Assembly (NCBI RefSeq): GCF_004362855.1
Contig: NZ_SNXW01000009.1
Span: 62,001 to 126,000, forward strand
Source: Aquabacterium commune
GTDB taxonomy: Bacteria > Pseudomonadota > Gammaproteobacteria > Burkholderiales > Burkholderiaceae_C
Length of the DNA: 64,000 bases
Direction of reading: 5' to 3'
The translations under genes were made by a program, and so were the position numbers. This document shows positions 4,416 to 39,402 of this stretch, piece by piece. A model generated the notes under the pieces. It ran no database searches. It had not been told where the DNA came from and saw only the letters and a list, made by a program, of their open reading frames with translations. Every line of letters begins with the position of its first letter. The first letter of the stretch is position 1.

Positions 4416-5672
4416 TCACTTCGCGATGAAGGCGTCGCGTGCCTGGCGGCCCAGGAAAGGGTGGTCGGTGAAGAAGCCGTCCATGCCCAGCTTGAGGAAG
4501 GCGGTGATCTGGCCTGCCAGGTCACCAAAAACGCCCGCATCGGCAGGGTTGGTGCTGCTGTCGAAGTCGCTGGGCAGGAAGTTGTTTTCGGCGCGGAAGG
4601 TCCAGCCGTGCACCTTCAGGCCGACCGCGTGCGCGTCGCTCACCAGCGTGGTGGGCGTGCCCAGCTTGCCGCCCACCAGCGGGATCATCAGGTTGGTGTT
4701 GGCGCCCACACCGGTGGCGTAAGTGGCGATCTCTTTCAGGCCTTCGGGCTTGGCGAGGTCGGCGTAGGTGCGCTTGTCGCCGGCCACGGTGAAGTCATAG
4801 GGCTGGCCCGAACCGTTGAGCAACTGCACCAGCGGCAGGCGTGTGCGGGTGGCCAGGGCCTTGAGGTTGCCCACCTCGAAGGACTGGATGAACACGGCGG
4901 CGTTGGGGCCGCGGTAGCCGTGGCGGTGCAGGCTGCGCAGCAAGGGCTCTTCCAGGGAGAGGTTGATGCCGTCGAAGTAGGTTGGGTGCTTGGTTTCGGG
5001 ATAGACGCCGATGGGCTTGAACTTGGCGGCGGCCTTGTGGCCACCTTCGGCCAGGGCCCTTGATTGGGCATGGGCGCGGCGGCGCTCGTTGGCCTGGTCC
5101 ACCAGGTTCAGCACCTCTTCGAAGGTGGGCACCTCGAACATGCGGTCAAAGCGGGTGTTGGCCACGCGCAGGCTGGGCAGGCGCTCCTTGGCGCGCAGGG
5201 TTTTCAGCTCGGCCAGGGTGAAATCTTCGGTGAACCAGCCGGTCAGGCTGACGCCGTCGATGAGCTTGGTGGTCTTGCGGTCGGCGAACTCGGGGCGTTC
5301 GGCCACGTCGGTGGTGGCTTCGCGGATGCTGCCGTCGGCGTTGACGATGGCGATGGCGTTCTCGTGGCGGGCCACCAGCACGCCGTCCTTGGTGCTGACC
5401 AGGTCGGGCTCGATGTAGTCGGCGCCTTGCTCGATGGCCAGCCAGTAGGCCAGCAGCGTGTGCTCGGGCACGTAGCCGGACGCACCGCGGTGGCCGATGA
5501 CCAGGGGCGCGGCCATCGTCGGCTGCGAAGTGGCATGGCGGGTGGCGTCGCTGGCGTCAGCACCGGCATCGTGGGCCTGGCTGAGGTTGGCGCAGGCGGC
5601 CAGGGCCAGCGCGGCGATGGGGGTCAGCAGGCGTGCGGCGGGGCGGGCGTGGGTGACGGGGCGGAAGGACAT
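4416..5672 (-). CDS. glpQ: Glycerophosphodiester phosphodiesterase lipoprotein (GlpQ-like)
   Basis: 418-residue exported phosphodiesterase, expected to hydrolyse glycerophosphodiesters to glycerol-3-phosphate and an alcohol. A signal peptide ends in a lipobox (ALAAC, Cys27), so it is likely a periplasm-facing or surface lipoprotein. The GDPD core is clear: VIGHRGASGYVPEHTLLAYW, then GADYIEPDLVSTKDGVLVARHE, with metal-site His and Glu/Asp residues. The C-terminal GLKVHGWTFRAEN and MDGFFTDHPFLGR stretches match GlpQ rather than UgpQ. A GGAG sequence precedes ATG 5672. It diverges from the type II secretion operon across a region with a Pho box; glpQ-type genes are often phosphate-starvation genes, so shared control is plausible. 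Confidence 0.9.
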   Translation of the reverse strand: MSFRPVTHARPAARLLTPIAALALAACANLSQAHDAGADASDATRHATSQPTMAAPLVIGHRGASGYVPEHTLLAYWLAIEQGADYIEPDLVSTKDGVLVARHENAIAIVNADGSIREATTDVAERPEFADRKTTKLIDGVSLTGWFTEDFTLAELKTLRAKERLPSLRVANTRFDRMFEVPTFEEVLNLVDQANERRRAHAQSRALAEGGHKAAAKFKPIGVYPETKHPTYFDGINLSLEEPLLRSLHRHGYRGPNAAVFIQSFEVGNLKALATRTRLPLVQLLNGSGQPYDFTVAGDKRTYADLAKPEGLKEIATYATGVGANTNLMIPLVGGKLGTPTTLVSDAHAVGLKVHGWTFRAENNFLPSDFDSSTNPADAGVFGDLAGQITAFLKLGMDGFFTDHPFLGRQARDAFIAK

Positions 5673-5771
5673 GGCGGGCTCTCCTGGATCTTGCGTGTGG
5701 TGAAAACAAGCTGTCTGGCCAGACTAGGAGGACCGTGTGTCGCCTGCGTGAACGGGGGGATGCCGTGAGGC

Positions 5772-5806
5772 TTGTCACAAAGCTGTCAGGGATAGCCCAA
5801 TAGGAT
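5772..5806 (+). promoter_or_regulatory. Pho box and -10 element ahead of the type II secretion operon
   Basis: Two 7-base repeats TTGTCAC (5772-5778) and CTGTCAG (5783-5789) are separated by AAAG, so TGTCA recurs at exactly 11 bases. That is the 7+4+7 layout of a PhoB site (consensus CTGTCAT repeats). A -10-like TAGGAT sits at 5801-5806, 11 bases after the box, the spacing expected where PhoB replaces the -35 contact. The orientation fits transcription of gspG; the divergent glpQ-like gene may share it. Binding is inferred from sequence only. Confidence 0.7.
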
Positions 5807-5856: not shown

Positions 5857-6345
5857 ATGAACATGTCTCGAGCGCCCCGCAGCCGGGTGCGGGCTGAACT
5901 CGTCCCTGTTGTGTCCCGCGTGCTGCCTGGCGTGCTGCCCCGCACGCAGCGCGGCTTCACCCTGCTGGAGCTGCTGGTGGTGCTCGTCATCATCGGTTTG
6001 CTGGCAGGCTATGTGGGTCCGCAGTTCTTCAAGCAGATCGGCAAGTCCGAAACCAAAACGGCCGCCGCACAGGTCGATGGCCTGGGCAAGGCGCTGGACC
6101 AATACCGCCTGGACACCGGCCATTACCCCAGCACCGAGCAGGGCCTGGCCGCGTTGTGGGTCAAGCCGGCCGATGAGTCCCGCTGGTGGGGCCCTTACCT
6201 GCGCAAGGCCGTGCCCAAAGACCCCTGGGGCCGCGAGTACCAGTACAAGGCCCCCGGCGAGCACGGCGACTACGACGTCTATTCGCTGGGCAAGGATGGC
6301 CGCGAGGGCGGTGACGGCGAAGACCAGGACATCACCAATTGGTGA
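5857..6345 (+). CDS. gspG: Type II secretion major pseudopilin GspG
   Basis: 162-residue major pseudopilin that forms the periplasmic pseudopilus. Prepilin cleavage motif RG/FTLLELLVVLVIIGLLAG with Glu at +5, then GPQFFKQIGKSETKTAAAQ and the GspG core LDQYRLDTGHYPSTEQGLAA. The C-terminus GREGGDGEDQDITNW is the calcium-binding GspG signature. I chose ATG 5857 because GGAAGGA (5841-5847) lies ten bases upstream; an in-frame ATG at 5815 is worse. Even so the leader is about 33 residues, long for a prepilin (usually 6-20). First gene of the operon, preceded by the Pho box, with gspF six bases after its stop. Confidence 0.95.
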   Translation: MNMSRAPRSRVRAELVPVVSRVLPGVLPRTQRGFTLLELLVVLVIIGLLAGYVGPQFFKQIGKSETKTAAAQVDGLGKALDQYRLDTGHYPSTEQGLAALWVKPADESRWWGPYLRKAVPKDPWGREYQYKAPGEHGDYDVYSLGKDGREGGDGEDQDITNW

Positions 6346-6350
6346 TCGCC

Positions 6351-7529
6351 ATGAGCCGCACGCCTGTCCCATCTGTTGCCCGACCTGCCGCTGACACCCC
6401 CGTGCCCCGTTCGCGCCGGCGGTCTGCGGCCGCATCGGCACAGGCACAGGCACGCCCGGGCGTGTTGCAGCGCCTGCAGGGGCAGCAGGTGTCACAGCGC
6501 CGCGTGGCGTTCCCCCGCCGCCTGTTCTGCCAGGAGCTGGCCGTGCTGCTGGACGCGGGCATCCCGCTGTACGAGGCCATCGCCACGCTGTGCGAAAAGG
6601 AAGAGTCGGGCGATGTGGCGCGTGTGCTGAACTCGCTGACCACCGATTTGTCCGAGGGCCGCACGCTGTCGCAGGCCATGCGCCAGCAGCCGCAGGCTTT
6701 CAGCTCGCTGCTCATCGCTTCCATCGAAGCCAGCCAGCGCACGGGCCAGACGGCCGAGGCGCTGCGCCAGCACGCGGCCTACCTGACGTGGCTGACGGGC
6801 TTGCGCGACAAGCTGGTCAGCGCGGCCATCTACCCGGCCATCCTGATCGGCGCCAGCCTGGTCGTCATCAGCTTCCTGACCGTGTTCGTGGTGCCGCGCT
6901 TCGCCGACATCTACGAAGGCATGGGCGGCGAGATGCCCTGGGCCTCGGCGGTGCTGCTGGGCATTGGCAAGGGCGTGGGCGACCACCCCTGGTTGACGCT
7001 GGGCGGCCTGGTCGGTCTGGGCATGGCCATCGCGGCGGCCTGGAAAGCCCCGGTGGTGCGCGCCGCGGTGTCGGAACGCCTGTGGCGCACGCCGGTCATC
7101 GGCCCGCGCCTGCGCCTGATCGAGCTGGCCTCGCTGTACCGCACGCTGGGCCTGCTGTTGCAGGCCGGTGTGGCCGTGGTGCCAGCGCTCGAAGCCTCGC
7201 TGGAGCTGGTCGGGCCCTCGCTGCGCCCCTCGATGACCCAGGCCACGCGCCGCGTGCGCGAAGGCGCCCGCCTGTCGGACGCGCTGCAGCGCCACCACCT
7301 GACCACGCCGGTGTCCGTGCGCATGATGCGCGTGGGCGAGCAGACCGGTGAGCTCGGCCCCATGCTGGAGCGCGCCGCGACCTTCTACGACGAAGAGCTG
7401 GCACGTTTCACCGAGTGGGTCGGCAAGGTGGTGAGCCCGGCGCTCATGCTCATCATGGGCGTGCTGATCGGCGGCATCGTGGTGTTGATGTACCTGCCCA
7501 TCTTCCAGGTGGCGGACCAGATCCAATGA
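6351..7529 (+). CDS. gspF: Type II secretion/type IV pilus inner-membrane platform GspF
   Basis: 392-residue polytopic inner-membrane protein with two T2SSF repeats. The first begins at FCQELAVLLDAGIPLYEAIA and the second at LYRTLGLLLQAGVAVVPALE. Membrane segments include YPAILIGASLVVISFLTVFV and the C-terminal PALMLIMGVLIGGIVVLMYL. It couples the cytoplasmic ATPase to pseudopilin assembly. ATG 6351 is preferred over upstream GTG/TTG codons (6342, 6339) that overlap the gspG stop. The N-terminal ~45 residues are Arg/Ala-rich and poorly conserved. The gspE start is 13 bases downstream. Confidence 0.95.
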   Translation: MSRTPVPSVARPAADTPVPRSRRRSAAASAQAQARPGVLQRLQGQQVSQRRVAFPRRLFCQELAVLLDAGIPLYEAIATLCEKEESGDVARVLNSLTTDLSEGRTLSQAMRQQPQAFSSLLIASIEASQRTGQTAEALRQHAAYLTWLTGLRDKLVSAAIYPAILIGASLVVISFLTVFVVPRFADIYEGMGGEMPWASAVLLGIGKGVGDHPWLTLGGLVGLGMAIAAAWKAPVVRAAVSERLWRTPVIGPRLRLIELASLYRTLGLLLQAGVAVVPALEASLELVGPSLRPSMTQATRRVREGARLSDALQRHHLTTPVSVRMMRVGEQTGELGPMLERAATFYDEELARFTEWVGKVVSPALMLIMGVLIGGIVVLMYLPIFQVADQIQ

Positions 7530-7542: not shown

Positions 7543-9144
7543 ATGAGCGCACAACTGCAAAGCAATGGCCAGCCCGAAGGCAGCAATGTGTTGCCGCTCG
7601 ACGGCATGCTGAACTGGGTGCCCGATTGGCGCGTCTGGCCGCTGGCGCGGGCCTTGCGCCTGCGCGTGGTGGTCGCCCGCGACGGCGAAGGCGATGCAGC
7701 CGACGCCGGCCACCTCTGGGCCCTGACCCCGCACACCGACGACGTGCTGCTGCGCGAGGCCGTGGGCCGCGCCGTGCCGCAGCCGCTGCGCTGGCGCCAT
7801 GTCGAGGAAGACACGCTGTGCCTGTGGCTGGCGCAAGGCGAGCAGGCCTTCGAGGCCCGCGGCACGCTGTTCGATGTCGAAGGCGCTGTGGGTGGCGCGG
7901 AGGGCGGTGCCGAGGTGCACGCCCTGTCGGTGGACACCATCACGCGCGAGACCAGCCAGGTCGTGCGCATGCTCGACGCCACGCTGTTCGATGCGCTCAA
8001 GGCCCAGGCCAGCGACTTGCATCTGGAATCGACCGCCACCGGCATGGTCATCCGCCACCGCCTGGACGGCGTCATGGTGCACGTGGGCGATGTGGGTTCG
8101 CGCGAAGTGGCCGAACAACTCGTGTCGCGCCTGAAAGTGATGGCCGAGCTCGACATCGGCGAACGCCGCCTGCCACAAGACGGCCGCTTCAAGCTGCGCG
8201 TGCAGCAGTCGGCCGACAGCGGCGTGCGCGAGGTCGACTTCCGCGTCTCCATCATGCCCAGCAGCTTTGGCGAAGACGCCGTGCTGCGCATCCTGGACCG
8301 CTCGCGCTTGTCGGAAGAATCGAGCGCGCTGAGCCTGGAAGGCCTGGGCTTCGATGCCGACGACGCCACCGTGGTGCGCCGCCTGGCCAGCAAGCCCTAC
8401 GGCATGCTGCTGGTGACCGGCCCGACCGGCAGCGGCAAGACGACGACGCTGTACGCCGTGGTCCAGGAGATCAACACCGGCGACGACAAGATCATCACCA
8501 TCGAAGACCCGGTCGAGTACCAGCTCGGCGGCGTGGTGCAGATCCCGGTCAACGAGAAGAAGGGCCTGACCTTTGCGCGCGGCCTGCGCAGCATCCTGCG
8601 CCACGACCCGGACCGCGTGATGGTCGGTGAAATCCGCGATGCCGAGACGGCGCAGATCGCCTCGCAAGCCGCGCTCACCGGCCACTTGGTGCTGTCCACC
8701 ATCCACGCCAACAACGTCTTCGACGTGGTCGGCCGCTTCATGCACATGGGCGTGGACCTCTACAACATGGTGTCGGCGCTCAATGGCGTCGTGGCCCAGC
8801 GCCTGATGCGCAAGCTGTGCACGCACTGCGCCGTGCCCTGGCAGCCCAGTGCGCTGGACCTCAAGGCCGCGCAGCTGCCGCTGGACACGCACGGCACCTT
8901 CTTCCAAGCCGTGGGTTGCGCGCATTGCCGCGACACCGGCTACCGCGGCCGCAAGGCCGTCACCGAAATCCTGCTCATGGACGACACCCTGCGCGACCTC
9001 ATCGTCACCCGCGCCTCGCTCATCAAGATCAAGGCCCATGCGCGCGCCAGCGGCACCCGGCTGTTGCGCGAATCGGCCCTGGCCTGCGTGCAGCGCGGCG
9101 AGTCCACGCTGGCAGAACTCAACCGCGTCACGCTGGCGGAATGA
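7543..9144 (+). CDS. gspE: Type II secretion assembly ATPase GspE
   Basis: 533-residue hexameric traffic ATPase that powers pseudopilus assembly at the inner membrane. Walker A GPTGSGKT at residues 293-300, Asp-box/Walker B region VMVGEIRDAETAQIA, His-box LTGHLVLSTIHANN, and a zinc-binding tetracysteine pair (C426/C429 and C459/C462). The sequence between the N-terminal domain and the ATPase core (FDALKAQASDLHLESTATG) is canonical. The last bases overlap the next start (ATGA at 9141-9144), implying translational coupling. The tetracysteine motif sets it apart from PilT/PilU retraction ATPases at 53-56 kb. Confidence 0.95.
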   Translation: MSAQLQSNGQPEGSNVLPLDGMLNWVPDWRVWPLARALRLRVVVARDGEGDAADAGHLWALTPHTDDVLLREAVGRAVPQPLRWRHVEEDTLCLWLAQGEQAFEARGTLFDVEGAVGGAEGGAEVHALSVDTITRETSQVVRMLDATLFDALKAQASDLHLESTATGMVIRHRLDGVMVHVGDVGSREVAEQLVSRLKVMAELDIGERRLPQDGRFKLRVQQSADSGVREVDFRVSIMPSSFGEDAVLRILDRSRLSEESSALSLEGLGFDADDATVVRRLASKPYGMLLVTGPTGSGKTTTLYAVVQEINTGDDKIITIEDPVEYQLGGVVQIPVNEKKGLTFARGLRSILRHDPDRVMVGEIRDAETAQIASQAALTGHLVLSTIHANNVFDVVGRFMHMGVDLYNMVSALNGVVAQRLMRKLCTHCAVPWQPSALDLKAAQLPLDTHGTFFQAVGCAHCRDTGYRGRKAVTEILLMDDTLRDLIVTRASLIKIKAHARASGTRLLRESALACVQRGESTLAELNRVTLAE

Positions 9145-10559
9145 GCATGGCCGTGCAAGCAGTTTCCTCCCGCGGTGCTGGCATCGCCACAGAGGCGGCA
9201 GCCGATGCCAGCTGGCAAGCCAGCCTGGGCCAGCAATTGCAGCGCCAGTGGCATCGCCTGCAAGCCCGCCTGCGCAGCACCTGGCGGCCCTTGACGGTGG
9301 CCTTGTTGGCGCCGCCCCATGTGCCGGGCGATGCCTTGGCCGTGGATGCCGCGCTGGACGCCTTCGATGCCTGGGCCGCCGAGCACGAAGGTGTGAACGT
9401 GGCCGTGCAGCTGTCCAGCCGATGGCTGCTGTGCTGTGCCACGCCCGAGGCCGCCAACGGTGCGCAAGCGCGCGAACTGGCGCAGCAGCAGTGGGCGCAT
9501 TACTTCGGCCTGGAAGCCGAGCAGCTGAACGCCGAATGGCTCACCGTGGACGCGCTGCAGGGCGGTGCGAAGACCGCGGCGCTGGGCGATGTGAGGCTGG
9601 TGTGCGCCGTGCCCCGTGCCCTGATCGATGGCCTGAAAGACGTGGCCCGCGAGCGTGGCCTGCAACTGCAAGCCGCCATGCCCTGGTGGGCCGAAGGCCT
9701 GCAGGATTCCTTGGACGCCGATGCCGTGGCCGTGCCCGCCGCCGCCCAGCCGGAAGGCAGCACCCGCGCCTGGGCCTGGGCCGAGCCGGGCCTGCTGAAC
9801 CAGGCGCAGGCCGAGGCGCGCGAAGGCCGCTGGGTGCTGACGCGGGTGTGGTCTGAGCTGGCCTCTGACGTGCGCGCCGAGCCAGGGCGAACGCCCGAGG
9901 CCGTGGCCGCCATGGCGCCGCCCGAGCCTGGCGCGCTGGCGTGGCCGCTGAGCCCGGCACCCCGCCGCCACGAAGGCTGGGCCGAGGGCCTGAACTTCCT
10001 GGGCCCGCGCGTGCGCACCAGCTTCTGGGGATGGGCCTTGCTGGCCCTGGGCGTGGTCGCGGCCCTGCACGCGGCCGACCGTGCCGCCGCCGTGCAGGAC
10101 GAGCTCACCGAGGCCCAGGCCGTGGTCAAGCGCCTGCAGCGCGGCGAGCGCCAGGTCAGCGTGCAGGCCCAGGCAGCCTCGGTCGCCCAGGCCACGCAAG
10201 CCGCCAGCGCGCCCGAGCTCCAGGCAGAGAGCTGGCGCCACGCCGCCCAGCTCGCCCAGTGGCTGGGCTTCCCCTGGGCCGACACGCTCGACCACATCGA
10301 CGCCACCTCGCTCAAGCACAAGGCGGTGCTGGCGCAGTTCAGCCTCGACCTGGCCACCCTGGCCAGCAACGAAGGCGTGCAGCCCGACCTCAAGCTGCAG
10401 GCCGCCGTCATCGACGACACCGCCGCCCTGCAGTGGCTGGCCGCCCTGGGCCCGCAAGCCATGCTGCGCGCCCGCGAACCGCTCAACACGCCCTTCCTCA
10501 CCGCGCAAGGCCGCTACGCCTGGCGCCTGGACGTCGTCACCACCGGTGGCACGCCATGA
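9141..10559 (+). CDS. PilM/PilN- or GspL-like assembly-platform protein
   Basis: 472-residue protein expected to bridge the GspE ATPase and the periplasm. The N-terminal ~270 residues are cytoplasmic and actin-fold-like in character but very divergent. One membrane segment occurs near residues 295-310 (SFWGWALLALGVVAALHAAD), followed by a periplasmic coiled coil (AAVQDELTEAQAVVKRLQRG) and a small ferredoxin-like end (LDLATLASNEGVQPDLKLQA). This is the GspL/MshI (PilM+PilN) layout. Assignment rests on topology and position (gspE-X-PilO-like-PilP-like-secretin), not on strong motifs. Start ATG 9141 and stop 10559 both overlap neighbours by four bases. Confidence 0.7.
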   Translation: MSMAVQAVSSRGAGIATEAAADASWQASLGQQLQRQWHRLQARLRSTWRPLTVALLAPPHVPGDALAVDAALDAFDAWAAEHEGVNVAVQLSSRWLLCCATPEAANGAQARELAQQQWAHYFGLEAEQLNAEWLTVDALQGGAKTAALGDVRLVCAVPRALIDGLKDVARERGLQLQAAMPWWAEGLQDSLDADAVAVPAAAQPEGSTRAWAWAEPGLLNQAQAEAREGRWVLTRVWSELASDVRAEPGRTPEAVAAMAPPEPGALAWPLSPAPRRHEGWAEGLNFLGPRVRTSFWGWALLALGVVAALHAADRAAAVQDELTEAQAVVKRLQRGERQVSVQAQAASVAQATQAASAPELQAESWRHAAQLAQWLGFPWADTLDHIDATSLKHKAVLAQFSLDLATLASNEGVQPDLKLQAAVIDDTAALQWLAALGPQAMLRAREPLNTPFLTAQGRYAWRLDVVTTGGTP

Positions 10560-11161
10560 ACGCGGCCTCCTGGACGATCTGGTTGAAGCGCCTGGGCTGG
10601 CCCGGCCTGGTCGGCATCGCCGCCCTGGCGGGTGTGCTGTGGGTGGAGCGCGCCTGGTTGCCGCAGCAGCAGGCACAGGTCGCGCAGACCGCGTCCGACG
10701 CGCGCCGCCTGCGCCATGAACTGCAAGCCCGCGCCGATGCCGTCCAGGCCGCGGCCAGTGCGGCGTCCAGCGCCAGCCAGGCCATCGACCCGAAGGCCGG
10801 CCCGCGCGCCGTCTGGGCCGTGCTCTGGGACGGCCTGCCCGACGCCTCCGAGCGCCTGGCCCTGCAAAGCGGCGTGCTGAGCGCGGCCCAGGACGCCGGC
10901 ATCGCGCTGGGCTCAGTGCAACTGCGCGGCGAGCTCTCGCCCTGGCTCGACAAGAACCAGCCGCAAGGCCTGTGGCGCCAGCGCATGGTCATGCCCGTGC
11001 AAACCAGCTACCCGGCCTTGCGCACCTGGTTGGCGGCCTTGCTGCGCCAGCCGGCCCTGAGCATCGACTCGCTCGATATCCAGCGCGCCGACCCCATGTC
11101 CGACCAGGTCAAGGCCCAGGTCACCGTGTCGCTGTGGTGGCGCCAGGACCGGAGCCACTGA
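10556..11161 (+). CDS. PilO/GspM-like platform protein
   Basis: 201-residue single-pass inner-membrane protein: membrane segment at about residues 13-30 (GWPGLVGIAALAGVLWVERA), a periplasmic coiled coil (QVAQTASDARRLRHELQARA) and a small ferredoxin-like fold ending VKAQVTVSLWWRQDRSH. This is the topology of PilO, GspM and MshJ, which dimerise with the preceding PilN/GspL-like protein. Sequence conservation is weak, so the call depends on topology and gene order. ATG 10556 overlaps the previous stop (ATGA), and the TGA at 11159-11161 overlaps the next ATG by one base. Confidence 0.7.
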   Translation: MNAASWTIWLKRLGWPGLVGIAALAGVLWVERAWLPQQQAQVAQTASDARRLRHELQARADAVQAAASAASSASQAIDPKAGPRAVWAVLWDGLPDASERLALQSGVLSAAQDAGIALGSVQLRGELSPWLDKNQPQGLWRQRMVMPVQTSYPALRTWLAALLRQPALSIDSLDIQRADPMSDQVKAQVTVSLWWRQDRSH

Positions 11162-11805
11162 TGCGCGCACCCTTGAAGATCGCACTCGCCGTGGCCGTGC
11201 TCGGCGCCGGATGGGCCGCCATGCAGCCAGACGATGGCGTCGAGCTCGCCGTGAGCGACAAGCGCGGCACTTCGAGCGACAAGCGTGGTGCTGCGACCGA
11301 CGATCGCAGAGGCACTTCACGCCCGACCTCCGCCCCCGCGATGGCCAAGCGCGGCGCGGCGCCAGCGGCGGCTGCGTCTGCACCCTGGACCGATGCCGCT
11401 TTGAGCGAGGGCGTCCGCGCCTGGCGCCTCAGGTTGACCGATGCCGAGGTGCTGCCGCCGGCCCGCCCGATGACAACGTCGTCACCTTCCGCCTGGGCCT
11501 CGATGGCGCCCCCGCCACCGCCACCCGTCAAAGAGGCGCCCCCGCCGCCGCCCCCGCCGCCGATGGCGCCGCGTTTCCCACATGCCTGGATCGGCCGCGT
11601 CAACGACGAGGCGTCCAGCGCGGCCGGTGCGGCCAGTGCCCCTCGCGCCATCCAGCGCGCCGTGCTCGCCGGCCCGGTGGCCACCTGGGTGGTCAAGGAG
11701 GGCGACGTCATCGACAGCCAGTGGCGCGTGGACCGCATCCAGGACAGATCCATGAGCCTGACCTACCTGCCCCTGCAGCAAAGCCAGACCGTTTCCATGA
11801 AATGA
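11161..11805 (+). CDS. PilP/GspC/MshK-like periplasmic linker protein
   Basis: 214 residues: a short N-terminal hydrophobic segment (IALAVAVLGAGWAAM), a low-complexity region with repeated DKRG/DRRG tetrapeptides (residues ~34-50), two polyproline runs, and a compact C-terminal domain. That domain (AWIGRVND, then VVKEGDVIDSQWRVDRIQ and a final hydrophobic LTYLPLQQSQTVSM) resembles the homology-region domain of GspC/PilP that touches the secretin. The charged repeats and polyprolines probably span the periplasm as a flexible arm. Position directly before the secretin supports the call. Weak sequence similarity means this is mostly inferred. Confidence 0.6.
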   Translation: MRAPLKIALAVAVLGAGWAAMQPDDGVELAVSDKRGTSSDKRGAATDDRRGTSRPTSAPAMAKRGAAPAAAASAPWTDAALSEGVRAWRLRLTDAEVLPPARPMTTSSPSAWASMAPPPPPPVKEAPPPPPPPPMAPRFPHAWIGRVNDEASSAAGAASAPRAIQRAVLAGPVATWVVKEGDVIDSQWRVDRIQDRSMSLTYLPLQQSQTVSMK

Positions 11806-14051: not shown

Positions 14052-14706
14052 GATCAGCGGCAACCCGCGCCTGAAGATGAGGGGCTTCACCCTCATCGAG
14101 ATGGTCGTGGTCGTCATGATCGTGGGCATCCTGGCCAGCGCGGCCATGCCCTTGATGGCGCTGCACAAGCGGCGCACGCAAGAAGCCGAGCTCAAGGAAT
14201 CGCTGCGCACCCTGCGCCGTGCCATCGACGCCTACAAACAGGCGGCCGACAAGGGCGACATCGCCAAGCGGCCCGACGACAGCGGCTACCCGCCCAGCCT
14301 GGACGTGCTGGTCAAGGGCGTGCCCAAGCTCACGCCGGGGGCGTCCCTGGCCGCGGGCAAACCGGGTGAGGCCAACAAGCCGGGGGGCAGTGGTGCCGCC
14401 GCGGCTGCGGGTGCTGCGCCGTCTGCGGCCAACGCCGCCTCCAGCGCCTTCTCGCTGAACCTCTTCGGCACGAGCACCGGTGGCGCCACCGACGCAGCCA
14501 CCGGCAAAGCCCCGGCCACCATCTACTTCCTGCGCCGCCTGCCACGTGACCCCTTCGCCGACCCCACCGTGCCCGCCGCCCAGACCTGGGGCCTGCGCAG
14601 CTACGCCAGCCCGCCCAACGCGCCGGCACCCGGGGCCGATGTGTTCGATGTGTACTCGCGCAGCGAAGGCGTGGGCCTCGATGGCGTGCCCCTGCGCGAA
14701 TGGTGA
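14038..14706 (+). CDS. Minor pseudopilin, GspG-like, with low-complexity insert
   Basis: 222-residue type II pseudopilin. Cleavage site MRG/FTLIEMVVVVMIVGILAS with Glu at +5 after a 16-residue leader; a second possible start is ATG 14077, directly at MRGF. The helix continues into KESLRTLRRAIDAYKQAADK. Residues ~100-150 are an Ala/Gly/Ser-rich insert that separates the N-terminal helix from the C-terminal GspG-like sheet (YFLRRLPRDPFADPTVPAAQ, DVFDVYSRSEGVGLDGVPL). Its first 14 bases overlap the secretin gene. It is likely a minor pseudopilin; its exact GspH/I/J/K equivalence cannot be set from the sequence. Confidence 0.85.
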   Translation: MNSIEISGNPRLKMRGFTLIEMVVVVMIVGILASAAMPLMALHKRRTQEAELKESLRTLRRAIDAYKQAADKGDIAKRPDDSGYPPSLDVLVKGVPKLTPGASLAAGKPGEANKPGGSGAAAAAGAAPSAANAASSAFSLNLFGTSTGGATDAATGKAPATIYFLRRLPRDPFADPTVPAAQTWGLRSYASPPNAPAPGADVFDVYSRSEGVGLDGVPLREW

Positions 14707-14713
14707 CATCCCC

Positions 14714-15127
14714 ATGGCCCCGATGACACCGTCCACCCCAGGCCACCAGCGGCGCCGCCGTGGCTTCACCCTGATCGAGCTGATCGTGGTGCTGGCCATC
14801 ATCGGCCTGCTCGCCAGCATCGTCGCCCCGCGCTATTTCCGCTCGGTGGACAACGCCCGCGAAGCCGCGCTCAAAACGTCCCTGAACGTCATGCGCGACG
14901 CCATCGACAAATACGCCGCCGACCGCGGCAACTACCCCGAATCGCTCGACGACATGGTGCAGCGCGGCTACCTGCGCCAGGTCCCCGAAGACCCGCTCAC
15001 TGGCCGGCGCGACAGCTGGCAGATGCTCGGCCCCCGCCCCGGCAGCGTCATGCAGGGCCGCGTGGCCGACGTGCGCAGCGGTGCGTCCGGGCGTGGCCAG
15101 GACGGCCAGCCCTACAGCAGCTGGTGA
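14714..15127 (+). CDS. Minor pseudopilin, GspG-like
   Basis: 137-residue pseudopilin with leader ending RRRRG and cleavage before FTLIELIVVLAIIGLLASI (Glu at +5). The globular part KTSLNVMRDAIDKYAADRGN and YPESLDDMVQRGYLRQVPED is GspG-like and PEDPLTGRRDSW is typical of this family. The C-terminus SGRGQDGQPYSSW mimics the GspG calcium-loop end. Start ATG 14714 lies 5 bases after the previous stop. Together with its neighbour it gives two consecutive GspG-like minor pseudopilins in addition to the major one at the head of the operon. Confidence 0.88.
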   Translation: MAPMTPSTPGHQRRRRGFTLIELIVVLAIIGLLASIVAPRYFRSVDNAREAALKTSLNVMRDAIDKYAADRGNYPESLDDMVQRGYLRQVPEDPLTGRRDSWQMLGPRPGSVMQGRVADVRSGASGRGQDGQPYSSW

Positions 15128-15660: not shown

Positions 15661-15719
15661 TTTCGTCAACAAACCGTCATTCGGCCTACCTACACTCCGC
15701 CCATCAATCACCCGGCATC

Positions 15720-17458: not shown

Positions 17459-17471
17459 ATGAGGTGATGCA

Positions 17472-18660: not shown

Positions 18661-18662
18661 AC

Positions 18663-33679: not shown

Positions 33680-35386
33680 ATGAAGATCAAGCGCATCCTC
33701 ACTTCGACGTTGTTCGCAGCAGCAGTTTGTCTGCCCACCCTGGCGCAAGCTTGGTGGAACGCCGATTTCAAGCACCGCACCAAGGTGGTGTTGAACACCA
33801 CCGCCCAAGGCGTGGAAACCAAGGAAGCCCTGTCGGGTGTGGTCGTGCCGGTGCGCTTGCACTCGGGCAACTTCGACTTCCTGGGCGCCAAGCCGGACGG
33901 CGCCGACCTGCGCGTGGTGGCCGCTGACGACAAGACCCCGCTGAAGTACTGGGTCGAGCGCTTCGACGGTGCCAATGAGTTGGCCGTGGTCTGGGTTCAA
34001 CTGCCCAACACCCTGCCCGGCACGGACAAGAACCTGGTCCATGTGTATGCCGGCAACGAAGCCGCTGCCGCCGAGGCCACCAGCCCCGCCATCTTCGACG
34101 GCGCCATGGCCGCGGCCATCACCTTCGCTGGCAAGACTGGCGAAACGGCCGATGACGTCAGCGCCCAGGTCAAGTCCGCAGGCCCCGTGGCCCGCGAGAA
34201 CACCGGCCTGATCGGTGTGGCCGCCAAGCTCGACGGCCAGCCCCTCACCTGGACCTCCGACAAGCTCAAGGCCGGTGGCACCGGCCCCTACAGCGTGAGC
34301 CTGTGGTTCAAGCCCGAAGCCGTCACGGGCACCTTGTTCAAGCAAGGCCCCCTGTCGCTGGCCCTGGCCAATGGCAAGGCCACCGCATCGCTGGGCGCCG
34401 CCACGGCGGTTGGCGGTGAGCTGCCGACCGCTGCCTGGGCCCACCTGGCCGTGACCGTGGGCAACGGCAAGCTGACCTTGTACGTCAACGGTGCCCAGGC
34501 CGCCCAGGCCGATGTGCCCGCGACCGTGGCCCCCATCGAAGGCGCCCTGTCGGTGGGCCAAGGCATCACTGGCCTGGTGGACCAACTGGAAGTCGCTGGC
34601 ACCGTGCGCAGCGCCGACTGGGTCAAGTTCGCCCACGCCGCCCAAAGCGCCGACGCCAAGCTCGTGCTGTCCACCACGCAAACGCCTGACACGGCCGATG
34701 CCGACGCGGGCCACGGCGAGAAGGGCCACTTCGCCATCCTGGTCGAGAACCTCACCACCGACGCCTGGGTCGTCATCATCATCCTGGCCATCATGTTCGT
34801 GATCGCCGTCTGGGTGATGTACGACAAGGCCGTGCTGGTGGGTCGTGCCGACAAGGACAACCTGAAGTTCCTCAGCAACTTCCGCAGCGCCAAGGACGTG
34901 CTGTCCGTGGGCACCACCGACATGAAGCACTCGCAGCTGGCACGCCTCTACAACGCCGGCCTGCGCGAGCTGAACAAGCGCGACGTGGGCAAACCCGGCG
35001 CGGCCCCCTTGTCGGGTGCTTCGCTGGACGCCGTCAAGGCCGCGGTCGATGCCGACCTGATCCGCGAAAGTCACACCCTCAACAGCAAGATCGTGCTGCT
35101 GACCATCGCCATCTCGGGCGGCCCCTTCCTGGGCCTGCTGGGCACGGTGGTGGGCGTGATGATCACCTTCGCGGCGATTGCCGCGGCTGGCGACGTCAAC
35201 GTCAACGCCATCGCCCCCGGCATCGCGGCTGCGCTGCTGGCCACCGTGGCCGGTCTGGCCGTCGCCATCCCCGCGCTGTTTGGCTACAACTACCTGGCCG
35301 CGCGCATCAAGAACATCTCGTCCGACATGGGCATCTTTGTCGATGAGTTCATCACCCGTGTCGCCGAGAACCACGGTGCCCGCTGA
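33680..35386 (+). CDS. DUF2341-LamG-ExbB fusion: MotA/TolQ/ExbB proton-channel protein with periplasmic sensor-like modules
   Basis: 568 residues. Sec signal peptide (residues 1-24, ending TLAQA/WWN). DUF2341 region at ~25-130 (WWNADFKHRTKVVLN, PLKYWVERFDGANELAVVWV). LamG/concanavalin-like sandwich at ~150-340 (GTGPYSVSLWFKPEAVTGTL, WAHLAVTVGNGKLTLYVNGA). Then ExbB: TM1 from ~361 (AWVVIIILAIMFVIAVWVMY), a cytoplasmic loop, TM2 from ~469 (GPFLGLLGTVVGVMITFAAI) and TM3 ~509-537 (IAAALLATVAGLAVAIPALF). ExbB is usually ~230-250 residues, so more than half of this protein is extra periplasmic sequence. The frame is continuous and the gene heads exbD-exbD-tonB, so it is a true fusion. It should form the proton-driven stator of a Ton system. 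Confidence 0.9.
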   Translation: MKIKRILTSTLFAAAVCLPTLAQAWWNADFKHRTKVVLNTTAQGVETKEALSGVVVPVRLHSGNFDFLGAKPDGADLRVVAADDKTPLKYWVERFDGANELAVVWVQLPNTLPGTDKNLVHVYAGNEAAAAEATSPAIFDGAMAAAITFAGKTGETADDVSAQVKSAGPVARENTGLIGVAAKLDGQPLTWTSDKLKAGGTGPYSVSLWFKPEAVTGTLFKQGPLSLALANGKATASLGAATAVGGELPTAAWAHLAVTVGNGKLTLYVNGAQAAQADVPATVAPIEGALSVGQGITGLVDQLEVAGTVRSADWVKFAHAAQSADAKLVLSTTQTPDTADADAGHGEKGHFAILVENLTTDAWVVIIILAIMFVIAVWVMYDKAVLVGRADKDNLKFLSNFRSAKDVLSVGTTDMKHSQLARLYNAGLRELNKRDVGKPGAAPLSGASLDAVKAAVDADLIRESHTLNSKIVLLTIAISGGPFLGLLGTVVGVMITFAAIAAAGDVNVNAIAPGIAAALLATVAGLAVAIPALFGYNYLAARIKNISSDMGIFVDEFITRVAENHGAR

Positions 35387-35436: not shown

Positions 35437-35844
35437 ATGGCCGGTGATGTCAAAGGCGATCTGCAGGCGTACGACGACATCAACGTCACGCCCATGCTCG
35501 ATCTCGCCTACGTGCTGCTGGTCGTGTTCATCATCATGACCACGGCCTCGGTGCAGGGCGTGAAGGTGACGCCCCCGCTGACCCAGGCGGCCAACAACCT
35601 GGCCAAGCCACAGACCAAGGGCATCACCATCACGGCCGATGGCCAGGTCTATCTGGACGCCTACCCCGTGAGCATGGACGAGCTGCAAACCACCCTGGCC
35701 CAGTACAAGGCCGCCAACCCTGCGCTGCCGGTGGTGCTGAAGGCCGACGCGGCCACCCAGTACGAGAAGGTCATGCAGGTGCTGGAAATCGCCAAGCGCC
35801 TGGACATCACCGAAATCGGCTTGGCCACCAAACGCGCGCAATGA
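35437..35844 (+). CDS. exbD: ExbD/TolR-family proton-channel subunit 1
   Basis: 135-residue single-pass inner-membrane protein. NVTPMLDLAYVLLVVFIIMT carries the essential membrane Asp (D22) of ExbD. The periplasmic domain GITITADGQVYLDAYPVSMD and VVLKADAATQYEKVMQVLEI is the standard ExbD/TolR fold. ATG 35437 is used; a TTG at 35431 is possible. It partners the ExbB fusion 50 bases upstream and is followed by a second exbD 8 bases downstream. Confidence 0.95.
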   Translation: MAGDVKGDLQAYDDINVTPMLDLAYVLLVVFIIMTTASVQGVKVTPPLTQAANNLAKPQTKGITITADGQVYLDAYPVSMDELQTTLAQYKAANPALPVVLKADAATQYEKVMQVLEIAKRLDITEIGLATKRAQ

Positions 35845-35852: not shown

Positions 35853-36254
35853 ATGCAGGTCCAAGACGAAACCAAACCCTACGACAGCATCAACGTCACG
35901 CCGATGCTGGACCTGGCCTATGTGCTGCTGGTCGTGTTCATCCTGATGACCACGGCTTCGGTGCAGGGCCTGAGCATCAACATGCCCAAGCCCAGCAACA
36001 AGCCCAGCACCGAGAAGCACGAGCTCAAGGTGGTGCAGGTGATGCCGGGCGGTGCCTTGCTGCTCAATGGCGTGCCGGTCACGGCCACCCAGCTCGAGAG
36101 CGAGCTGGTCCAGGCCAAGCAGCGCGACCCGAAGATGAGCGTGGCCATCAAGGGCGACGCCCGTTCGCAATACGCCCAGGTGGTCACCGTGATCGACCTG
36201 TGCAACAAGCTGGAGGTGTCCATGGGCCTGGTCACCGCCAAGATCGGAACCTGA
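35853..36254 (+). CDS. exbD: ExbD/TolR-family proton-channel subunit 2
   Basis: 133-residue paralogue of the preceding protein, with the same NVTPMLDLAYVLLVVFILMT membrane helix and Asp at residue 20. The periplasmic part differs (VQVMPGGALLLNGVPVTATQ, VAIKGDARSQYAQVVTVIDL). The near-identical membrane helices but divergent periplasmic domains suggest an ExbD heterodimer in one channel. The TGA is one base from the tonB ATG (TGAGATG), implying coupled translation. Confidence 0.95.
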   Translation: MQVQDETKPYDSINVTPMLDLAYVLLVVFILMTTASVQGLSINMPKPSNKPSTEKHELKVVQVMPGGALLLNGVPVTATQLESELVQAKQRDPKMSVAIKGDARSQYAQVVTVIDLCNKLEVSMGLVTAKIGT

Positions 36255-36255: not shown

Positions 36256-36972
36256 ATGAGCGCCCCTGACATGGACCGTGGCGACCAGGCCGCCGAGGAC
36301 ACCCAGGACGGCGGCGCCAAGCGCTTCATCGTGCCCGCGGTGCTGGTGCTGGCCCTCGTGGTGGCGTCCTACCTGATCTACAGCCAGATGGGCAAGGGCG
36401 GTGGTGGCCCCAAGCGCCAGACCGTGAAGATCGCGGTCCTGCCCGACACCCCGCCGCCGCCGCCGCCGCCCCCGAAGGACGAGAAGAAGCCCGAGCCCAA
36501 GCCCGACGAGAACAAGCCTCAGCCGCAAGAGCAAAAGCAGGTCGAGGCCCCGCCCGAGCCGCAGCAGCTGAAGATGGAAGGCGCGGCAGGCGATGGCCCG
36601 AGCGCTTTCGGCTCAGGCAGCGTGAACAGCGAGTACAAGGGCGGCGCCATTGGCACAGGCACGGGCGGTGGCACCCTGGCCGACAAACTGGCTTTCGGCA
36701 GCTTCGGCAATTCGGCGCGGCGCGAAGTCAATGACTTCCTCAACCGAGACCAGAACTTGCGGCGCAGTGGTGACTACAAGTTGCCCTTGAGCCTGTGGGT
36801 ACGTGCTGACGGCAGCATCGAGCGTTTTGAGCTGGATGCGAGCTCCGGTAACCCAGAGGTTGACAGCCGCCTTCGCCAGGCCCTGGCGCAGTTCCGTGGG
36901 TTCCGTAACCCACCGCCTGCTGGCCTGCCTCAGCCCATCAGGCTGCAAGTGACCAACCGCATGACAGGCTGA
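36256..36972 (+). CDS. tonB: TonB-family energy transducer dedicated to the TPS/Ton block
   Basis: 238 residues: short cytoplasmic start, one membrane helix at ~25-43 (FIVPAVLVLALVVASYLIYS), a Pro/Lys/Glu-rich rigid arm including an eight-proline run, a Gly-rich linker (GGAIGTGTGGGTLADKLAFG) and a compact C-terminal TonB domain (LPLSLWVRADGSIERFELDA to the end). It should transmit proton-motive force from the ExbB/ExbD complex to an outer-membrane partner. No TonB-dependent receptor with a plug domain is in the window, so the partner is unknown; TpsB, the porin or a remote receptor are options. Confidence 0.9.
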   Translation: MSAPDMDRGDQAAEDTQDGGAKRFIVPAVLVLALVVASYLIYSQMGKGGGGPKRQTVKIAVLPDTPPPPPPPPKDEKKPEPKPDENKPQPQEQKQVEAPPEPQQLKMEGAAGDGPSAFGSGSVNSEYKGGAIGTGTGGGTLADKLAFGSFGNSARREVNDFLNRDQNLRRSGDYKLPLSLWVRADGSIERFELDASSGNPEVDSRLRQALAQFRGFRNPPPAGLPQPIRLQVTNRMTG

Positions 36973-37016
36973 GTGCGCTCGGGCGCAACCGTCATCGTTT
37001 TTCAAGCGACATCATC

Positions 37017-38735
37017 ATGACCATCAAGCTTTTCACCCGTTGGCCCGCGCTCACTGTCCTGGCCATGGCCCTGGCAGCGCCTGTTGCCCACGCTGACGAC
37101 CGTGCAGCCCTGGAAACTTTGCGCCAGACCACCCGCAACTTGATCGATGCGTTGGTTGAAGGCGGCGTGATCACGCGCGAGAAGGCTGACGCCTTGTTGA
37201 AGGCCGCGGAGCAGCGCTCTGCCGCTGAGTTGGCCAGCAAGCCAGTCGCGCCTGCTGCCCCTATCACCACGGCCGATGGCAAGCCGGTGCTGCGCGTGCC
37301 TTATGTGCCCGAGAGCATGCGCAACCAAATCCGTGACGAGGTCAAGGAGGAAGTGATTGCCCAGGCACGTGCCGAGCGTTGGGGTGTGCCCAATGCCACA
37401 CCGTCTTGGGTGGACCGCATCCGCATTGATGGTGACATGCGCTTGCGCTACCAGAAAGATGATGTCAACAGCAACAACACGGCTGCTCTGACGTACCTCG
37501 CGGCAGAAGTTGGCAACGCGAATGGTATTTCCCGTATTCCTGACTTTGCAGCTTACCGGCTGACCAGCAACAACCTACCGCTGCCAGTGAGTGACACCAC
37601 GGCTGATCGCACACGTGAGCGCATCCGCTTGAGGTTGGGGTTGACGGCGAAGGTGACGGACGAGGTCTCCGTGGGACTCCGGTTGGCCACTGGCAGCGCC
37701 ACCGATCGCGTCTCCACCAACCAGACCATGGGGCAGAACTTCAACAAGTACCAACTTTTTGTGGACCGTGCCTTTGTGCGCGTGGACCCGGCTGAATGGG
37801 TGACGCTGCAAGGCGGTCGCATCCCGAATCCCTGGTTCAGCAGCGAGATGACCTGGAACGAAAACCTCAACTTCGAGGGTTTTGCCGCCACTTTCCGTCA
37901 CCCTGATCAGAATGCAGCCATTGCGCCGTTCCTGACCCTGGGCTACTTCCCCTTGCGCGAGGCCACGCCACCGACCCGCAACTCGCGCTCACTGTGGGGC
38001 GCGCAGATCGGCGCGAACTGGGCGGTGGATTCCCGCACCCGCGTCAAGCTGGGGCTGGCTTACTACCAATACAACAATATCGAGGGCCGTTCGGACAACG
38101 ACTACACCATCACGGGCACCACCGTTCCAACCGGTTCGACCTACGGGCAGTATGAATACCCCGTGGGTTTGCGTCAGAAGGGCAACACCGTCTTTGAGAC
38201 CAACCCGCTGTTGTCGGGTTCTTTGGACACTGCCCCCGTGTGGGGCTTGGCCTACCGCTTCAAGCCGCTGGTGTTGACGGCATCCGCCGAGTTCACGCAC
38301 TTCAATCCGTTCAACATCTTGTTGTCGGCCGAGTACGCCAACAACACAGCGTTCAGCGCCTCGGACTTCCGTCGTCGCGCGACGTTTTCCAGCTACGCCA
38401 ATGTGGACCCGGGCGGCAAGCGAGATGGCTATCAGATCAAGCTGGCGGTGGGCGCCACCGATGTGCGTGAAGCCGATGACTGGCAGGTGCAAGCCACCTA
38501 CCGTCACCTGGGCTCCGATGCCGTGCTCGACGCCTTCACAGACAGCGACCTGGGTTTGGGCGGGACCAACATGCGTGGTTACATCCTAGGCCTCACATAT
38601 GGGCTTTACCGCAACACCTCGCTGGGCCTTCGCTACCTGGCCGCCCAAAACATTGACAGCACCATCAACAGCAACTTCCCCAACGCGACCTTCAAGGTCA
38701 ACTCCCTGCAGGTGGATTTGAATGTTCGCTTCTGA
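37017..38735 (+). CDS. Putative outer-membrane porin (Porin_5-like)
   Basis: 572 residues. Signal peptide ends AHA/DD. A helical, probably coiled-coil segment follows (LETLRQTTRNLIDALVEGGV, ITREKADALLKAAEQ), then a barrel from ~130 starting IRIDGDMRLRYQKD with alternating strands (RERIRLRLGLTAKVTDEVSV) and ending in Phe (VNSLQVDLNVRF). This is the layout of 'putative porin' proteins that co-occur with ExbB/ExbD/TonB clusters. Substrate unknown. It starts 44 bases after tonB and probably belongs to that operon. Weaker idea: a surface receptor energised by this TonB, but no plug domain or TonB box is evident. Confidence 0.85.
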   Translation: MTIKLFTRWPALTVLAMALAAPVAHADDRAALETLRQTTRNLIDALVEGGVITREKADALLKAAEQRSAAELASKPVAPAAPITTADGKPVLRVPYVPESMRNQIRDEVKEEVIAQARAERWGVPNATPSWVDRIRIDGDMRLRYQKDDVNSNNTAALTYLAAEVGNANGISRIPDFAAYRLTSNNLPLPVSDTTADRTRERIRLRLGLTAKVTDEVSVGLRLATGSATDRVSTNQTMGQNFNKYQLFVDRAFVRVDPAEWVTLQGGRIPNPWFSSEMTWNENLNFEGFAATFRHPDQNAAIAPFLTLGYFPLREATPPTRNSRSLWGAQIGANWAVDSRTRVKLGLAYYQYNNIEGRSDNDYTITGTTVPTGSTYGQYEYPVGLRQKGNTVFETNPLLSGSLDTAPVWGLAYRFKPLVLTASAEFTHFNPFNILLSAEYANNTAFSASDFRRRATFSSYANVDPGGKRDGYQIKLAVGATDVREADDWQVQATYRHLGSDAVLDAFTDSDLGLGGTNMRGYILGLTYGLYRNTSLGLRYLAAQNIDSTINSNFPNATFKVNSLQVDLNVRF

Positions 38736-38742
38736 TCACCCC

Positions 38743-39402
38743 ATGCCCCGACCCACTCACCGGGTGCTGCGCGGCCTGATCGCGCTGTCGCTGGCCGTGT
38801 CCGCCTCGGTGGTGTTCGCGCAATCCGACAAGGACGCCGAACAAACCAAGCGCTTGCGCCTGCAAATGCGTCAGATCCAGCAGCAGCAACAGGAGGCGCA
38901 GGAAGCGCAAGCCAAGGCCGATCAGGCCCGCCAGCAAGCAGAGCAAAGCCTGAAGGCGCAAGAGTCTGACCTGCAAAAGCAGCGGGCTGCAGCCGGCAAT
39001 GCCCAGCGCAAGGCCGCCGTGCTGGACAAGGAGCTGGAGAAGCTGAAGGCCGACCACGAGCGGCTCAAGGCTGATTTGGCCGCCCTGACCGAGAAGCACC
39101 AAGGCGTGTTGGCCACGGCGAAGGCCGCACAGGAAAAGGCCGCGGCTGCCGAGTCCCGCCTCACGCAAGAGGGGCAGCAGCTCACGCAGCAGTTGCAGCG
39201 CTGCACGGCCGACAACGCGACCCTGGTGGGCCTGGGCAACGAGTTGCTGGTGCGGTACGAGAGCAAAGGTTTGGGCGAGGTCTTGTCCGCCAACGAGCCC
39301 TTCGTGCAGACGGGCCGCGTGAAGCTGGAGAATTTCAAGTCGCAGTACGGCCAGCGCATCGAGGCGGCCAAGGTCAAGGCGGGGGATTCCCCTGCGCGTT
39401 GA
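38743..39402 (+). CDS. Periplasmic coiled-coil protein downstream of the porin
   Basis: 219 residues. Signal peptide ends VVFAQ; residues ~30-160 are one long Gln/Ala/Lys/Glu-rich coiled coil (AEQTKRLRLQMRQIQQQQQE, LDKELEKLKADHERLKADLA). The C-terminal ~60 residues (CTADNATLVGLGNELLVRYE, VQTGRVKLENFKSQYGQRIE) look conserved and contain one Cys. ATG 38743 is preferred because the signal peptide starts there; ATG 38722 would overlap the porin. It sits seven bases past the porin stop, so it may scaffold the porin or Ton complex in the periplasm. No known family function. Confidence 0.7.
   Translation: MPRPTHRVLRGLIALSLAVSASVVFAQSDKDAEQTKRLRLQMRQIQQQQQEAQEAQAKADQARQQAEQSLKAQESDLQKQRAAAGNAQRKAAVLDKELEKLKADHERLKADLAALTEKHQGVLATAKAAQEKAAAAESRLTQEGQQLTQQLQRCTADNATLVGLGNELLVRYESKGLGEVLSANEPFVQTGRVKLENFKSQYGQRIEAAKVKAGDSPAR

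Follow-up and report, generated by a model that had tools for sequence, protein, structure and literature searches.

Why would a bacterium keep a type II secretion system (T2SS), a giant exoprotein of the two-partner secretion (TPS) type and a dedicated TonB motor side by side? The question is raised by a locus at positions 4416-39402 of a 64,000-nucleotide stretch of the Aquabacterium commune genome (the window; contig NZ_SNXW01000009.1, positions 62,001 to 126,000). The answer that we favor, with moderate confidence and from sequence comparison, is that the locus encodes a surface module for phosphate starvation under the control of PhoB, combining capture with motor-driven import. An initial annotation had listed a glpQ gene, a Pho box, an atypical T2SS, a phosphate-binding-protein-like secreted protein (PBP), TpsB, TpsA, an ExbB fusion, two ExbD, TonB and a porin; all of these parts were confirmed in place, and a LuxR/EpsA regulator, an ankyrin-repeat protein, a PEP-CTERM protein and a coiled-coil protein (38722-39402) were added to the list. 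The kit recurs in related bacteria in two versions made of partly different parts, which hints at the role of the motor.

Apart from glpQ, all genes of the locus are encoded on the forward strand. TPS hallmarks were present in both partners: TpsB (20131-21879; start probably 20149 or 20209) carried POTRA_2 and a ShlB barrel, and TpsA (21930-33509), of 3859 amino acids, carried ESPR and DUF3739 domains. The Pfam TPS (haemagglutination) domain gave no match in TpsA at E ≤ 0.001; the homologue in Aquabacterium olei is annotated as an FHA N-terminal domain protein. There followed a fusion of DUF2341 (PF10102), a lectin-like LamG domain (PF13385, Laminin_G_3) and ExbB (PF01618, MotA_ExbB) at 33680-35386, two ExbD proteins (35437-35844 and 35853-36254; PF02472 in each), TonB (36256-36972; TonB_2) and a Porin_5 outer-membrane porin (37017-38735; PF16930, 2e-157). 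The ExbB, ExbD and TonB domains of a TonB motor were thus all recognised. The coiled-coil protein, with a signal-like N-terminus, adjoined the porin in relatives as well.

Comparison of gene content across genomes showed that the lectin-bearing ExbB, the two ExbD, TonB and the porin are inherited as a conserved set. Among 398 Pseudomonadota genomes (the phylum draw), the fusion (E ≤ 1e-35) was found in 14 and DUF3739 (over the model cut-off) in the same 14, which represent 12 genera; in 11 of these both lay on one contig within 40 kb. A draw of 120 genomes from the family (fusion called at E < 1e-80, DUF3739 by model cut-off) contained the fusion in 15 genomes, adjoining a DUF3739 gene in 14 of them, and DUF3739 over the cut-off in 16. 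A search of genome contigs with the PBP family yielded 50 named loci (80 stretches matched the pattern used). TpsB followed PBP in 49 of the 50 (in the exception, L191, no TpsB separates PBP from TpsA) and TpsA was present in 49 (the stretch of L200 ends first). The genomes of 36 of these loci were searched for the fusion at E ≤ 1e-40, and each contained exactly one; it lay about 13-22 kb beyond PBP in 33, assuming the same contig, and on another contig in L164, L177 and L180. Tractable hosts are among the carriers of the PBP-TPS-fusion set, e.g. Methylophilus methylotrophus DSM 46235 (L205).

The Pho box reported between glpQ and the gspG-led operon (5772-5789, forward strand) is present, and its core match is not exceptional when judged within the window alone: TGTCA-N6-TGTCA with at most one mismatch was found once in the 64 kb, where shuffled sequences lead one to expect 3.0. 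The exact core occurred six times in the 4.2 Mb genome (once for the backward control), and by eye the other five did not precede recognisable pho genes; the core pattern as a detector was dropped as unspecific. For an extended promoter motif, ten sites were picked by eye from scans of pstS promoters in the window's genome and its relatives, two of the sites being from the window's own genus. The motif consists of an 18-bp direct repeat, a spacer of about 10 bp and TAnnnT. As a position weight matrix, the motif scored 22.4 at 5772, before gspG (5772-5806: TTGTCACAAAGCTGTCAG, 11 bp, and TAGGAT as the -10 element), and 19.1 at 15663, before luxR (15663-15696: TCGTCAACAAACCGTCAT, 10 bp, TACACT). 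Both sites, on the forward strand, scored below the training sites (26 to 33.5); the top score in the reversed sequence of the first 28 stretches was 18.1. The site before gspG was found in all seven loci of the Aquabacterium clade whose available sequence covers that promoter (window, G033, L240, L243, L245, L246 and L252; G denotes genomes and L loci or stretches), and was kept in L240, L243, L245 and L246 though GspF and GspG have diverged there to 69-82% identity. Because of the extended match and this conservation, we regard the gspG site as credible. The luxR site stood at the same place in G033 (L097, L192), L171 (the genome of L243), L172, L173, L174 and L197 (the genome of L240), and was weaker in L245 (14.8) and L156 (15.0).

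Across the 50 loci (996 kb), 25 sites scored at least 17, compared with 3 in reversed sequence. Sixteen of the 25, in 15 loci, were located no more than 500 bp before luxR (8), a divergent S8 protease gene (5), tpsB (2) or the secretin gene (1); forty column-permuted motifs averaged 0.05 such gene-linked sites and never gave more than 1. A further 19 stretches (392 kb), with loci of the canonical type described below among them, contained 11 sites of at least 17, and their reversed sequence none. Support for the phosphate link that is independent of motifs came from G114, in which pstS and phoB are located side by side directly upstream of the module's T2SS (L105:5318-7197), each as a second copy in the genome; the second PhoB scored 308.6 bits (cut-off 296.2) and the main PhoB 316.4. 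A PhoB-like gene beside LuxR in G008, a genome 65% complete, scored 293.2, just under the same cut-off of 296.2. Pho control of the module, as predicted from promoter and gene neighborhood, is thus supported in several species.

The PBP (18795-20099), which has a signal-like N-terminus, is highly divergent: it had no Pfam or NCBIfam match at E ≤ 0.001, and a sequence search of the PDB found nothing. An AlphaFold2 model built from 35 sequences (predicted local distance difference test, 80.8; predicted template modelling score, 0.83) was compared with solved structures using Foldseek. The first 19 rows were solved phosphate-binding proteins, 14 of them at E ≤ 0.001, and the best row had E 6.5e-7, probability 1.00 and template modelling scores of 0.40 by query and 0.69 by target. 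Invariant columns among the 35 sequences included G29, S95, D149, R263, R264, S268, G269 and T270. The conserved GxxA-, GS-, D- and RR...SGTQ-type positions follow the order of the ligand motifs in PstS. The protein is therefore predicted to have the PstS fold and is a putative phosphate binder.

In the T2SS, domain and family models recognised GspG (5857-6345; TIGR01710, 182 bits, cut-off 88.85), GspF (6339-7529; PF00482), GspE (7543-9144; PF00437, 1e-124) and the secretin (11802-14051; a lipobox-like N-terminus by eye, then a tetratricopeptide repeat (TPR) region, STN, Secretin_N and Secretin). The three inner-membrane proteins at the places of GspL, GspM and GspC had no Pfam match and were named by position only: GspL/PilM-PilN-like (9141-10559; shorter open reading frames (ORFs) occupy its place in L189), GspM/PilO-like (10559-11161) and GspC/PilP-like (11161-11805). 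Two minor pseudopilins (14038-14706 and 14717-15127) were recognised by the N-methylation motif (N_methyl) alone, and a third pseudopilin-like protein (15132-15644), without a relevant Pfam match, keeps its position in relatives. With 162 bits on the GspD model, below its cut-off of 351, the secretin sets this system apart from a canonical T2SS of the Hxc type; the canonical secretin of G452 scored 625. Next came a LuxR-type regulator (15720-16547) that just exceeded the model for the EpsA family (TIGR03020, 171.3 bits, cut-off 170); a LuxR gene was present in 43 of the 50 loci. The T2SS and the TPS/Ton genes, the linkage of which had been put forward as a test of the locus, were repeatedly found together: a GspD or GspE homologue lay near the PBP-TPS unit in 29 of the 50 loci, and, from coordinates read by eye, GspF lay within about 30 kb of the fusion or the DUF3739 gene in nine of the 14 phylum-draw genomes (G000, G114, G474, G509, G248, G284, G452, G541 and G309). 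No GspF was located within about 30 kb in G405, G527, G354, G434 and G418; in G434 and G418 the fusion and DUF3739 are on different contigs. Two genomes had a lone secretin without the TPR part before LuxR (L098:16966-18774 in G062 and L101:7535-9322 in G077); the upstream 17 and 7.5 kb, respectively, yielded no further T2SS gene, and both genomes encode a related secretin elsewhere.

The second, canonical version of the design was examined in G452, G474 and G309 (three of the 13 other genomes of the phylum draw, besides G114) and on a plasmid of B. arboris. Full models were run for G452 only, and its T2SS exceeded their cut-offs (GspD 625, GspE 681 and GspF 516 bits). The order there was T2SS, a DING-type protein related to PstS, TpsA, TpsB, the fusion, ExbD, a TonB-like ORF (by eye) and porin, with FecR-like and TonB-receptor-like genes further on. 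DING-type proteins (24-32% identity), T2SS parts, TPS, fusion, ExbD and porin were likewise found in G474, G309 and the B. arboris plasmid; a Cupriavidus plasmid had an annotated canonical T2SS, TpsB and the Ton-porin block, with TpsA and a DING protein not in the stretch. Pho-type sites preceded VreA-like genes in G452, G474 and B. arboris (19.4, 20.7 and 21.5, respectively) and the T2SS genes in G309 (25.7), where a weaker one (16.2) faced the DING gene. By gene content, the canonical version is the plan published for the Pseudomonas Hxc/PUMA3 locus, which the window realises in different parts. The suggestion in the initial annotation that the same functional idea had been assembled from different parts is borne out: canonical loci share the TPS, the lectin-ExbB, ExbD and the porin with the window, and differ from it in T2SS and PBP. 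Because two kinds of T2SS and two kinds of phosphate-binding protein recur beside the same TPS-Ton block, we argue that secreted phosphate binding, giant exoprotein, porin and motor form one functional unit. The further statement that no vreARI is adjacent holds for two of the three genes, as the FecR-like (VreR-like) and TonB-receptor-like (VreA-like) proteins of G452 had no homologue in the window (best E 0.04 and 0.24, respectively); no separate search was made for a VreI-like sigma factor.

In the published sections cited here, the PUMA3/Hxc locus of Pseudomonas aeruginosa comprises vreARI, hxc, lapA, pdtA, phdA, pdtB, exbB2-exbD2-tonB4 and PA0696-PA0701 (PMC2729926, PMC4971064, PMC7035377), i.e., a T2SS, a phosphate-linked exoprotein, TPS, ExbB, ExbD, TonB, a putative porin and Pho boxes, as in the window; the order ExbB-ExbD-TonB-porin-next gene after the TPS genes is also shared (PMC4971064, PMC7035377). 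One of these accounts terms exbB2-exbD2-tonB4 "still uncharacterized" (PMC7035377). Set against the published description of PAO1, rather than its proteins, the window differs in having an EpsA-type LuxR with its own Pho promoter, another T2SS, another PBP, no VreA- or VreR-like homologue, two ExbD, a PEP-CTERM gene and a tpsB that precedes tpsA. Among the results listed by our literature searches for a module of the window type, only the Pseudomonas relatives came up, and novelty is claimed within those searches. The hxc-psp-pflu2428 region of Pseudomonas fluorescens SBW25, as far as the cited part describes it, combines a T2SS, a secreted phosphate-binding protein and a 4083-aa haemagglutinin-like exoprotein, with a Pho box predicted at psp (PMC2225411). 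Psp, however, is a DING protein and Hxc is another T2SS; the window PBP gave no BLAST alignment with the DING-type protein of G452 (best E 3). HxuA/HxuB/HxuC of Haemophilus influenzae offers the parallel of a TPS exoprotein that captures a ligand which a TonB-dependent transporter imports; the ligand there is haem, HxuC is a TonB-dependent transporter rather than a Porin_5 protein, and the section cited describes a three-gene operon without a motor (PMC5422565). DUF2341 has also been noted on MotA/ExbB-type A subunits of generic ion transporters, in the cited part with function unknown (PMC12505986), whereas the window-type fusion is tied to DUF3739 TPS systems by its occurrence in the same 14 of 398 genomes.

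On the sequence evidence, the locus is a mosaic with a break inside TonB, making TonB a natural chimera; this split within the locus is a new finding here. Between the window and G033, synonymous divergence (dS) was 0.05-0.25 for the T2SS, LuxR, ExbB and both ExbD, and 0.47-1.23 for ankyrin, PEP-CTERM, PBP, TpsB, TpsA, TonB and porin; the coiled-coil gene (0.40) and a DUF1840 gene (0.36) fell between. Thirteen ORFs of the pst-pho region gave 0.03-0.50, mostly near 0.2; the 0.47 of PBP, if considered by itself, lies within that range. Because the surface genes show raised synonymous divergence as well, positive selection was discarded as the only explanation of their divergence. Identity jumped near 16.6, 33.6, 36.5 and 38.7 kb, and within TonB it fell from 95% (residues 1-142) to 55% (residues 143-238). 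TpsB, TpsA and the porin of the window were closer to the more distant AER3 (69, 51 and 74%) than to G033 (60, 48 and 65%), while its T2SS and LuxR were far closer to G033; PBP and TonB, too, were closer to G033.

Trees were built from ten genomes (nine for LuxR), all around Aquabacterium, and record the history of one clade. An inner set (LuxR, ExbB, ExbD1, ExbD2 and the TonB N-terminal part) and an outer set (PBP, TpsB, the TonB C-terminal domain (CTD) and porin) conflicted: the outer data rejected an inner clade of five (p 9e-37) and the inner data an outer clade of three (p 1e-4), both clades having been chosen after the identity tables were seen. In Mantel tests the TonB-CTD followed porin (0.83), TpsB (0.77) and PBP (0.83; p ≤ 0.001), and the N-terminal part followed ExbD2 (0.83), ExbD1 (0.74) and LuxR (0.93; p ≤ 0.002). 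The two halves of TonB correlated with each other at 0.17 (p = 0.13), and cross-terms between the sets were 0.03-0.30 (lowest p 0.0555); ExbB was not in the Mantel tests. Simple correlations of the TonB-CTD were 0.89 with porin and 0.81 with PBP. In the pair RIF63/G130 the CTD is more alike (66%) than the N-terminal half (50%), with the porin at 76%, which implies that halves with different histories were joined. Since the fusion and DUF3739 coincide in all 14 of the 398 genomes that have either, and the halves of TonB have separate histories, the question of what the motor is for becomes a direct test.

Surface genes appear to have been swapped between species as cassettes (window 16562-33509 and 36682-38735), with the T2SS, LuxR and ExbB/ExbD staying in place. 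A window-type set from secretin through coiled-coil gene is carried by the A. olei plasmid pTB101 (L156; 366 kb), a possible vehicle for such exchange; about 8 kb past the set is a gene annotated as "phosphate transport regulator". A bolder proposal, which we offer tentatively and consider somewhat unlikely, is that DUF3739-type TPS is an energised system with an obligatory private TonB motor, lectin-bearing and proton-driven, and that TonB is modular, with a motor half and an exchangeable outer cassette (PBP, TpsB/TpsA and porin). If so, entire surface machines would be swapped between species while the motor stays.

For the phosphate module that we favor, the proposed order of events is as follows: PhoB would switch on the T2SS and LuxR promoters, and LuxR would presumably activate the PBP-TPS-Ton genes. 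The T2SS would deliver PBP to the surface, in the way that Hxc releases the DING protein Psp in P. fluorescens, and TpsB would display TpsA; TpsA and PBP together would capture phosphate or phosphorylated polymers. Finally, the private motor would act via the TonB-CTD on an outer-membrane partner, most likely the porin, importing the captured ligand. The logic would be that of HxuA/HxuB/HxuC with phosphate replacing haem, and the whole would work like the pseudomonad Hxc-LapA/DING-PdtAB-ExbB2D2-TonB4-PA0696 locus, with another T2SS, PBP and regulator. The porin is favored as the client of TonB because the CTD follows it as closely as it follows PBP (0.83 each) and because a VRVPYVPE-like segment is found near the porin N-terminus in nearly all of 20 aligned sequences. 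On this view the motor would drive the outer-membrane side; its first-choice task would be to import captured phosphate compounds, with energised secretion of TpsA as the boldest alternative.

A number of observations weigh against this reading. Outside the Aquabacterium clade, the gspG promoter had a site of at least 15 in only one of four loci (G114, 17.6), with none in G103, G084 and G011, and no gene-linked site of at least 17 was found in 35 of the 50 loci, in which the gspG promoter mostly falls outside the flanks. The 50 loci are related to one another and were counted separately, so that the counts are not independent; an earlier scan of 28 module stretches gave 15 sites of at least 17 and 3 in reversed sequence. 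No GspD or GspE was found within the flank in 21 of the 50 loci, six of which have less than 8.9 kb upstream. By profile comparison (hhalign), the PBP family matched PstS with 11% probability (E 0.0027); because this match is weak, the case for homology rests on the predicted fold. None of the module proteins scanned had a Pfam match to a plugged TonB-dependent receptor, nor did the receptor-like protein of G452 have a homologue in the 64-kb window. ExbB correlated weakly with the TonB N-terminal part (0.52; 0.33 with the CTD), and the TonB-CTD and porin are adjacent, such that a single recombination tract explains part of their covariation. The fusion and DUF3739 are about 45 kb apart in G105, and one of the 16 DUF3739 genomes of the family draw (G016, an 18-kb contig) has no fusion. 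In SBW25, according to the cited part of that study, phosphate limitation induced psp and did not induce hxcR (PMC2225411); a window-type T2SS, by the same token, need not follow the phosphate pattern.

Other explanations were weighed against the phosphate module. Conserved genes may simply recombine freely and be homogenised within lineages, while diverged surface genes cannot, in which case the TonB split would reflect conservation rather than contact. The breakpoint does lie where TonB conservation falls, and the CTD adjoins the porin, as this account would have it; yet the CTD of RIF63/G130 is more alike than the N-terminal half, and the CTD tracks PBP and TpsB even though the conserved ExbB-ExbD stretch lies in between, so we judge such a neutral mosaic fairly unlikely. 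That an unrelated T2SS sits beside a TPS island by chance is highly improbable: the T2SS is missing from some loci, but its genes are nearby in the 29 loci and nine phylum-draw genomes given above, and two different kinds of T2SS recur at the same place.

The motor might instead power the TPS itself, with ExbB-ExbD-TonB pulling, pushing or unjamming the 3,500-4,500-residue TpsA via TpsB, or working TpsA at the surface, and the porin as a helper. The shared occurrence of DUF3739 exoproteins and the fusion is what this would predict, and the TonB-CTD also follows TpsB (rho 0.77). The lectin-like domain, behind a signal-peptide-like N-terminus, would by the topology of ExbB face the periplasm. 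Nevertheless, TpsB has only ordinary POTRA and barrel domains, the CTD tracks porin and PBP slightly better than TpsB, the G016 contig encodes DUF3739 and no fusion, and the section cited regards type V secretion as needing no energy source (PMC5422565); we consider this role doubtful. We think it about equally doubtful that the locus is an attachment or biofilm program under phosphate shortage, with TpsA as adhesin, PEP-CTERM and EpsA serving the matrix, and phosphate uptake not its task. The EpsA-family regulator, the PEP-CTERM genes and, in G084, a neighboring curli-like operon (annotated by eye) that has a Pho-type site would fit. However, a protein of the phosphate-binding-fold family precedes TpsB in 49 of 50 loci (loci found with that family), the canonical version has DING-type proteins, and a pure adhesin needs neither TonB motor nor porin.

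The glpQ-like glycerophosphodiester phosphodiesterase (GDPD/GlpQ; 4416-5672, reverse strand; PF03009, 9e-38) is divergent from the T2SS operon and has a lipobox-like N-terminus by eye. It is adjacent to the T2SS operon also in L240, L243 and L246; no copy was seen in the available stretch of Aquabacterium sp. CECT 9606 (L245), and the gene was dropped as a core part and regarded as accessory. Between LuxR and PBP are the ankyrin-repeat protein (16562-17458; PF12796), with a signal-like N-terminus, and the PEP-CTERM protein (17770-18660; PF07589). Another TonB-like protein is encoded outside the module (578-1615, reverse strand).

Further Pho-type sites were observed around related modules. In G309, a distant member of the phylum, two are located back to back at L266:10686 (reverse) and 10745 (forward), between the T2SS genes and the DING-type gene. 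Another complete PstS gene of G103 (G103:C16:619265-620191), the second in that genome, lies about 21 kb past the fusion and has a good Pho site, and the curli-like genes of G084 (csgG/csgF by eye; L085:2334-4904) have a Pho-type site of 24.4 upstream, at 5503. An S8 subtilase gene is divergent from the head of the module in L160-L163, L176-L178 and L182, and all eight such loci of the 50 have a Pho-type site (16.1-22.1) before this gene.

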